Both the position numbers and the translations under genes were made by a program. 64,000 nt of DNA, taken from contig NZ_AP019700.1 in assembly GCF_006738645.1 (NCBI RefSeq), forward strand, positions 1,562,001-1,626,000. The letters are read 5' to 3'. The DNA comes from Stella humosa (GTDB lineage Bacteria > Pseudomonadota > Alphaproteobacteria > ATCC43930 > Allostellaceae). Below, in pieces: positions 9,923-25,411 of the stretch. Each line of letters begins with the position of its first letter. The first letter of the stretch is position 1. The notes under the pieces are model-generated. The model was not told the DNA's origin. It did not search any database and saw nothing but the letters and a program-made list of their open reading frames with translations.

Positions 9923-9982
9923 AGCTGATCCTGGCACGCGCCTTGCCTCGTCCCCTGGCAGACAGCCAGGAGGGCGGGCGGG

Positions 9983-23316: not shown

Positions 23317-24732
23317 TCAGGCCGGCAGGTTGGGCACGCGGCGGTGCCACCCCGTCGCCTGCTGGTACTGGTGGGCGACCCGCAGCAGCAGCGGCTCGCT
23401 GAACGGCCGGCCGACGAGCTGGACCGCCATCGGCAGGCCCGCCCCGTCGAAGCCGATCGGCAGGGCCAGCGCCGGCAGGCCCAGATAGTTGAAGGGCCGG
23501 GTGTAGCGGGTGAGGCGTGCCACCATGGCCGGGATGGCCGCGGTCTGCTCCTCGTCCGTCTCGGCGATGGTGGGCACGGGGAAGGTGAGGATGGGGGCGG
23601 CCATCAGGTCGATGCCGGCCATCACCGTCTCGACGAACTGCCGCAGGAGGCGGCCGCGCAGCGCCATCGCCTCCAGGTAGCGGGTGGCCGGGATGTGGTA
23701 GCCGGCCTCGGTGCGGCTGTGGACATGGACCGAATAGTCCTGCGGCCGGTCGCGCATCCAGGTCCCATGGGCAGCCGCCGCCTCCGACTTGGAGATGGCG
23801 TCGCCCAGGGCGAAATAGGGCTCGAGCGGCGGGGCGGGAACGGCCGCGCCCGCCATGCCTAGACCGGCCAGGACGTCCATGGCGGCCGACACGGCGCCCG
23901 CCACCTCGGGCGTCGCATCGGCCATCCAGGCTTGCGGCGGCAGGCCCACGCGCAGGCCGGCCACCGACCGGTCCAGGAAGGTTCGGTCGTCGGGGAAGGG
24001 GCGGCGGCTGGTCGTGGGGTCGCGCGGATCGTGGCCGCTGATGGCGGCCATCATCAAGCTGGCGTCGGCGGCCGTGCGGGTAAGCGGCCCGATGGTGTCG
24101 AGCGACCAGGCGCGCGGCATCGAGCCAGCCCGGCTGACCCGGCCATAGGTCGGCTTCAGCCCGATCAGCCCGTTCATCGCCGCCGGCAGGCGGATCGAAC
24201 CACCCGTGTCCGATCCAAGCGCCCCCGCCACCATGCGCGCGGCCACGGCGGCACCCGAGCCCGCCGACGACCCGCCGGTGATGCGCGACGGGTCCCAGGG
24301 GTTGCGGTTATGGCCGAAATGGATGTTGTGGCCGGTCGGCCCGGCCGCGAATTCCGACATGTTGAGCCAGCCGACCGTGATGGCACCGGCAGCCTCCAGC
24401 CGGGCTACGGCGGGGGCAGGGTCGGGCTGCGGCTGGCCCGGCAGGATGGCCGAGCCGCCGGTCATCGACCCGCCGGCGCGGGCGAACATGTCCTTGTGGG
24501 CGAGCGGCACGCCGTGCAGCGGCCCCGCCCATTGCCCGGCCGCGGCGGCGCGGTCGAGGTCGGCTGCCCGGGCCAGGGCGGCATCGGCCTCGACCCGCAC
24601 GAAGGCGTTGACGACCGGCTGCCACTGGCTGATCCGGTGCAGGGCCGCGCGCGTGGCTTCGACGGACGAAAGTTGACGGTGGCGGATGGCGCCGGCGAGC
24701 TCGGCCACGCCCATCAGGGCCGGGTCGGTCAT
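23317..24732 (-). CDS. Amidase signature enzyme, second copy
   Basis: This 471-residue amidase has the triad K80 (PLAHKDMF), S155 (ITGGSSAGSG) and S179 (GSDTGGSIRLPA). It has diverged strongly from the amidase at 16386-17783 outside the motifs, so the two are not a recent duplication. The start at 24732 overlaps the stop of a 75-residue small gene (ATGA), the same arrangement as the other amidase. It is the second gene of the operon, ahead of the binding proteins. Likely function: hydrolysis of an imported amide. Substrate unknown. Confidence 0.9.
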   Translation of the reverse strand: MTDPALMGVAELAGAIRHRQLSSVEATRAALHRISQWQPVVNAFVRVEADAALARAADLDRAAAAGQWAGPLHGVPLAHKDMFARAGGSMTGGSAILPGQPQPDPAPAVARLEAAGAITVGWLNMSEFAAGPTGHNIHFGHNRNPWDPSRITGGSSAGSGAAVAARMVAGALGSDTGGSIRLPAAMNGLIGLKPTYGRVSRAGSMPRAWSLDTIGPLTRTAADASLMMAAISGHDPRDPTTSRRPFPDDRTFLDRSVAGLRVGLPPQAWMADATPEVAGAVSAAMDVLAGLGMAGAAVPAPPLEPYFALGDAISKSEAAAAHGTWMRDRPQDYSVHVHSRTEAGYHIPATRYLEAMALRGRLLRQFVETVMAGIDLMAAPILTFPVPTIAETDEEQTAAIPAMVARLTRYTRPFNYLGLPALALPIGFDGAGLPMAVQLVGRPFSEPLLLRVAHQYQQATGWHRRVPNLPA

Positions 24733-24956
24733 CGGCCGTCCTCGGGCCGCGCCAACTCGTCCAGGACGGCCAGGAACTGCATCGGCTCGTCGAAGAACCA
24801 GAATGGCGGAACGATGGCGGCCATCTGCGCCTGGATGCGCGCCACCTCGGCCGCCAGTTCGCCGGCGCGCTCGATCGTCAGGGACAGCCCATGCAGTTCC
24901 AGGCCCTGGGCCTGGATCAGCGCGGCGGATACGGAAGGGGAGGGATCGGTCGGCAT
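24729..24956 (-). CDS. Small amidase-partner protein (AtzG/GatC-like)
   Basis: This 75-residue helical protein overlaps the following amidase by four bases. It has a central helix IERAGELAAEVARIQAQMAAI, then VPPFWFFDEPMQFLAVLDEL. It shares size and position, but little sequence, with the 66-residue protein before the other amidase. Position and architecture suggest a GatC/AtzG-like stabilising subunit. As the first gene of the operon it lies about 65 bases downstream of the predicted small RNA terminator. Confidence 0.55.
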   Translation of the reverse strand: MPTDPSPSVSAALIQAQGLELHGLSLTIERAGELAAEVARIQAQMAAIVPPFWFFDEPMQFLAVLDELARPEDGR

Positions 24957-25021
24957 CGTGCCGACGGCGTCGCAACAAGCATGCCATGGGCTGGCGTTGC
25001 CGCGGTCGATCGGCGGGCCGG

Positions 25022-25053
25022 AAAAAGAAGAGGCCGCACCCGAAGGTGCGGCC
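25022..25053 (-). terminator. Intrinsic terminator of the predicted sRNA/leader
   Basis: GGCCGCACC (25032-25040) and GGTGCGGCC (25045-25053) form a perfect 9-bp stem closed by a CGAA loop on the plus strand, TTCG on the transcript strand. The minus-strand transcript then runs TCTTCTTTTT. It is one of the few hairpins here with a proper U-tract. Confidence 0.75.
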
Positions 25054-25120
25054 CAAGTTTAGGGAGGAAACGCCCAAGAAGACACAACATGCACCGCGAG
25101 GCGGTGTGGGCCATGCTGCG
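25022..25120 (-). ncRNA. Predicted small RNA or transcription attenuator upstream of the amidase operon
   Basis: On the minus strand a promoter (25155-25127) is followed by about 100 bases with three parts. A hairpin of CACCGC/GCGGTG with a 3-base loop lies at 25092-25106. An apparently unpaired pyrimidine-rich stretch contains TTTCCTCCCT, able to pair with ribosome-binding sites. A 9-bp GC stem with TTCG loop and TCTTCTTTTT tail ends it. This is the architecture of alphaproteobacterial trans-acting sRNAs. Because the amidase operon begins 65 bases further on, it could instead be a leader whose terminator controls that operon. The rest of the 24957-25411 gap holds no gene. Confidence 0.6.
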
Positions 25121-25126
25121 AAACCG

Positions 25127-25155
25127 AATATGCACCCTCGCCTGGCGGCTTTCAA
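25127..25155 (-). promoter_or_regulatory. Predicted sigma70 promoter of the sRNA/leader
   Basis: On the minus strand TTGAAA (25155-25150) and CATATT (25132-25127) are 17 bases apart. The expected start is near 25120, which gives a transcript of about 100 bases up to the terminator. Confidence 0.6.
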
Positions 25156-25411
25156 GAGGTTTTTTGCAGTTGCTCACTGAAAGAATGGTGCATGATCTTC
25201 AGTGGCCCGGAGGCGGATCATATATCGCACTATGTCAGGTAATTAGCGGATTTTCCGCATCTCGAAACAGAGCTGTATGGCTCGAAAAAGCTCTTGTGCA
25301 ATGCAGCACTGCGACGTTCCGTCGCGCATTTCCAGCCGTTCCGTTGCCGCTGCCCGACCCAGGCCTTAGATTGCCCGACGCCGACGAACCGGCAGGAGAC
25401 GAAGGCCCGGC

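Follow-up and report, generated by a model that had tools for sequence, protein, structure and literature searches.

A Probable Trans-Acting Small RNA of the αr8 Family Encoded beside an Amidase Operon in Stella humosa

Results

Identification of an αr8-Family sRNA Gene

The minus strand of the Stella humosa window (the whole 64,000-nucleotide stretch of DNA that was analyzed) very likely carries a stand-alone gene for a trans-acting small RNA (sRNA) of the αr8 family, about 100 nt long, whose seed is predicted to pair with Shine-Dalgarno sites. The gene (mmgR/SisA-type; 25017–25120, minus strand) is delimited by a covariance match to Rfam family RF00519 together with a 5′ extension that is conserved in Stella. 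A trans-acting sRNA is supported because the match covers the αr8 model at full length and both seed and terminator are conserved in relatives. On sequence evidence, relatives keep all elements of the gene: the σ70-type promoter that belongs to it, the hairpin at the 5′ end, a second hairpin that is weak and only potential, the seed, and the terminator. Every sequence element that the initial annotation of this locus had named lies where it had been placed, on the minus strand.

A scan of the whole window with Rfam returned three matches above the curated thresholds, two tRNAs and RF00519, the latter at 25090–25017 (minus strand) with a score of 61.6 bits (gathering cutoff 41, E = 3e-10) and spanning model positions 1–77 of 77. 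RF00519 is the Rfam family suhB, which Rfam describes as mmgR; it is the αr8 family, known in Caulobacter as SisA, and this is its only above-cutoff copy in the genome. The RNA has the seed of the family, UUUCCUCCCU, as an exact match, as well as its Rho-independent terminator, and the predicted promoter, conserved in Stella, makes it a putative independent intergenic transcription unit. Linkage to an N-formylglutamate amidohydrolase (FGase) gene, which is usual for αr8 in most species and not strictly defining, was not found: this genome has four FGase genes, all at other places, and an amidase operon adjoins the sRNA. The gene is a real, ordinary, and expected member of an already described sRNA family.

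Anti-Shine-Dalgarno motifs are present in several unrelated alphaproteobacterial sRNAs, and an RNA of another kind (αr14/NfeR1-like or AbcR-like) could share CCUCCC with αr8 by chance. Such a coincidence is contradicted by a match that spans the whole αr8 model and by the scores of all other Rfam sRNA families at the locus, every one of which is below threshold (SorY, for example, reaches 18.9 against a cutoff of 111); we consider it exceedingly improbable. Elsewhere on the contig, at 2835391–2835468 (minus strand), a second αr8-like RNA with the seed AUUCCUCCCU scores a subthreshold 28.9 bits; it was read in this genome and in Stella vacuolata, and the other two Stella genomes contain matches of similar score.

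Of 81 relatives, 58 have an RF00519 member above the cutoff, as do 73 of 143 genomes sampled across the class. Among named records, the genome of the window is closest to S. vacuolata ATCC 43931, whose amidase is 87% identical, and to Stella sp. ATCC 35155. Throughout the four Stella genomes the −10 box, 5′ hairpin, seed, and lower terminator stem are almost unchanged, and the flanks drift. The seed is the most strongly conserved part of the αr8 RNA, with TTTCCTCCCT, or no less than its final eight bases, at 54 of the 55 loci read; the one locus without it is L017. A lack of conservation of the hairpins or of the CCTCCC motif in relatives, which the initial annotation had named as evidence that would speak against its reading, was thus not observed, with seed and terminator both conserved there.

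Promoter and Transcript

The promoter TTGAAA-N17-CATATT proposed previously is present on the minus strand by direct reading as well as by promoter scan, with the −35 box at 25155–25150 and the −10 box at 25132–25127. It is the one promoter-like site in the 1.2 kb scanned, where 0.1 is expected in shuffled sequence. Comparison within Stella shows TTG of the −35 box in all four genomes, the full TTGAAA in three of the four, and no change in the −10 box CATATT. The predicted transcript, its start deduced from the −10 box, comprises ~100 nt from ~25120 to ~25021; the covariance match extends to 25017, which was taken as the 3′ limit of the annotated gene.

Predicted RNA Architecture

The 103-nt RNA folds more stably than its shuffles (z = −3.7). 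The first hairpin of the initial annotation is confirmed as CACCGC-CTC-GCGGTG at 25106–25092 (minus strand), and in the predicted fold it forms the apex of a longer imperfect hairpin, GCAUG...CAUGU (25083–25117, minus strand), that lies only partly inside the Rfam model and whose loop is the sole variable part across the Stella genomes. RNAalifold applied to 17 sequences missed the base of this hairpin; its arms are misaligned in that alignment, and per-sequence folding was therefore used. At 54 αr8 loci, the 36-nt segment just 5′ of the Rfam model has a mean z of −2.6; for a control segment lying another 100 nt upstream the value is −0.3, and the individual z-scores in Stella are modest (−0.9 to −1.4). 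The folding results indicate a predicted 5′ hairpin beyond the Rfam model that is kept across the Alphaproteobacteria; it is newly added here.

The anti-Shine-Dalgarno seed, UUUCCUCCCU (TTTCCTCCCT), occupies 25061–25070 (minus strand) and is identical to the αr8 10-mer reported previously (PMC12559287). For the stretch described as unpaired in the initial annotation, the exact seed at 25070–25061 is therefore established, whereas its exposure is a prediction: GUUU is paired with AAAC in the minimum-energy fold, leaving only CCUCCCU (7 nt) of the seed in the loop. A weak hairpin before the seed, with four pairs (GUCU/GGGC, two of them G-U), is possible in the model alignment and absent from the minimum-energy fold.

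The RNA ends in an intrinsic terminator, located by terminator scan, whose stem-loop (25031–25054, minus strand) reads GGCCGCACC-TTCG-GGTGCGGCC and is followed by CTTCTTTTTC, with the U-rich tail running to ~25021. A TTCG-loop terminator with a U-tract had been recognized before; the scanner counts 10 pairs in place of the 9 bp given then. In alignment A2, the terminator pairing is kept in 17 of 17 sequences, and pairs of the upper stem have changed on both sides and yet remain paired in up to 7 of the 17.

Relationship to the Adjoining Amidase Operon

The operon downstream of the sRNA is an amidase/solute-binding-protein operon. Its first gene is a small 75-aa ORF (24729–24956, minus strand) with no Pfam or NCBIfam match, which is kept as 75–76 aa in S. 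vacuolata and Stella sp. ATCC 35155 and was not found in that form in a further genome (G002). It is followed by an amidase-signature enzyme (23317–24732, minus strand; PF01425) that is nearest to the AtzE type, at a score below the cutoff of that model.

Between the sRNA terminator and this first ORF lies a σ54-type promoter, TGGCATGCTTGTTGCG (24971–24986, minus strand), which was identified by pattern match, is close to the σ54 consensus, and keeps its position in all four Stella genomes. The corresponding pattern, TGGCAYGNNNNTTGC, has two matches in the window versus 0.12 expected from shuffles. Transcription from the promoter at 24971–24986 is expected to begin ~4 nt ahead of the ATG at 24956, which would make the amidase mRNA nearly leaderless. 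The other σ54-type promoter motif of the window, TGGCACGCGCCTTGC, is at 9932–9946 (plus strand).

These features bear on the second half of the initial annotation, which had read the locus as either an sRNA or an attenuator. A cis-acting attenuator, in which read-through of the terminator would control the amidase operon, is in line with an arrangement in which the amidase adjoins the sRNA on the same strand in four of four Stella genomes and the terminator precedes the ATG at 24956 by 65–75 nt, in agreement with the 65 nt noted earlier. We rejected attenuation because of the intervening, conserved σ54-type promoter and the changing neighbors. Motif evidence for that promoter suggests that the downstream gene is not transcribed only by way of the terminator. 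The association of the sRNA with an amidase operon was seen in Stella only; other families have different, unrelated neighbors, usually a convergent FGase gene following the sRNA, and no conserved association with a controlled gene was found outside Stella. Moreover, the RNA belongs to a known trans-acting family and is most conserved in its seed. Of the two readings, the trans-acting sRNA is thus the one that stands, on the full-length αr8 match and the conserved seed, and control of the operon by read-through is very unlikely. In all likelihood the amidase operon is transcribed separately, from a putative σ54-type promoter of its own, and the sRNA is probably not a switch for its neighbor. 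A leader arrangement upstream of FGase genes was considered as well and ruled out, since in the correct frame the genes are convergent.

Predicted Targets of the Seed

In Caulobacter, the αr8 10-mer UUUCCUCCCU pairs with Shine-Dalgarno regions, aided by Hfq, and brings about the repression of a wide range of mRNAs; experiments there have demonstrated base pairing, dependence on Hfq, and repression of targets for this seed, and the sponge RNA CrfA counteracts the αr8 sRNAs (PMC12559287). We infer that the Stella seed would likewise pair with Shine-Dalgarno sites of the GGGAGGAAA type and would keep a group of mRNAs from being translated, in the way that Caulobacter SisA represses its targets.

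The target search relied on sequence patterns only, with GGGAGGAAA, the complement of nine seed bases, as the query. Sites of the form GGGAGGAAA-N1-12-ATG number 13 in the genome of the window versus 1 for the reversed control, and several of them recur upstream of orthologous genes in sister Stella species. Twelve of the 13 sites have usable genes, of which 7 encode solute-binding proteins of transport systems, compared with ~4 of 47 genes in a control set with AGGAGGB ribosome-binding sites (three by Pfam, one by eye). A one-sided Fisher test gives p ~0.0005–0.003 for this enrichment, the value varying with the number of control ORFs counted as real. The predicted αr8 target class in Stella is probably enriched for solute-binding proteins of ABC, TRAP, and TTT transporters; the enrichment could instead mirror the strong ribosome-binding sites of highly expressed genes.

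Loss of hfq from the Assembly

The Hfq models of Pfam and NCBIfam have no match in this assembly, and each of three sister Stella genomes has one. Alignment of the S. vacuolata hfq region to the genome of the window reveals a clean 2.3-kb gap at contig position about 2,734,650 (L101:3586-4500 versus L095:3888-6210). The missing stretch comprises the end of an aminotransferase class IV gene, a HAD hydrolase gene, hfq, and hflX over its first two thirds; what is left is an in-frame fusion ORF of 305 aa. A Pfam search of the genome for ProQ likewise gave no match. With one assembly at hand, the loss may be a real deletion in the strain or an assembly error.

αr8 sRNAs usually depend on Hfq, as in Caulobacter (PMC12559287). 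The gene could accordingly be a relic in this strain, its RNA unstable or without effect lacking Hfq, which would fit the deletion of hfq with parts of its neighbors and the missing Pfam match to ProQ. The promoter, seed, and terminator of the sRNA are nevertheless intact, and the loss of hfq, a gene present in the three sister genomes, may be of recent date or an artifact of assembly. We regard a relic as unlikely and retain the reading as a trans-acting sRNA gene.

PhaR-Type Motifs in αr8 Promoters

A PhaR/AniA motif has been published for S. meliloti (PMC12542648), and its core palindrome, YGCRNYGCR, lies within the promoter region at 40 of 54 αr8 loci versus 11% of control stretches; two scrambled patterns occur at 0 and 1 of the loci. 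In a reduced set intended to represent each family by roughly one locus, 26 of 34 have the palindrome. The promoters that bear it are among L003–L084 and come from many alphaproteobacterial families. It is absent from all four Stella promoters (L001, L014, L016, and L026); L026 and L014 alone have a form with one mismatch. Upstream of the Stella sRNA promoter, at about 25160–25240 of the window, we observed a conserved TGCAAAAAA and a further palindrome, GCANNTGC; the latter is found at 12 of 54 αr8 loci versus 4% of control stretches.

Discussion

The αr8 family itself is known; what is new here is the conservation of the 5′ hairpin, the PhaR-type motif in αr8 promoters, the predicted solute-binding-protein target set, and the hfq deletion. 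All four come from sequence analysis; the hairpin, the motif, and the deletion are side results. This work adds a clean αr8 member for a little-studied genus and names specific likely targets. The comparative PhaR-motif result matters more than the new member: if the motifs are real operators, carbon storage would be coupled to αr8 throughout the family, a link examined so far in S. meliloti (PMC12542648), and this is directly testable. A bolder proposal would have the Stella RNA work in this strain without the deleted Hfq, its 5′ hairpin and terminator sufficing for stability and pairing, and αr8 stand under direct control of the PHB sensor PhaR throughout the class, with that control lost in Stella; we consider this combination distinctly improbable.

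Comparison with Known αr8 Systems

Sinorhizobium meliloti MmgR, which limits the accumulation of PHB granules, belongs to the same Rfam family, RF00519, as the Stella RNA. This 77-nt RNA is induced by NtrC, and AniA/PhaR represses it by way of a site in its promoter (PMC7143759, PMC12542648); the Stella gene differs in its longer 5′ part and in a promoter without an intact PhaR-type site.

Caulobacter crescentus has four αr8 copies and the sponge CrfA, whereas Stella has one above-cutoff copy. The Caulobacter sisA gene is downstream of an FGase gene, and a convergent FGase next to the αr8 gene has been reported there (PMC12559287); the Stella copy sits beside the amidase operon in an assembly without hfq. 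SisA represses mRNAs by pairing with their Shine-Dalgarno sequences, and Caulobacter SisA-D share with the Stella RNA an identical 10-nt seed, UUUCCUCCCU, a Rho-independent terminator, and an intergenic gene (PMC12559287).
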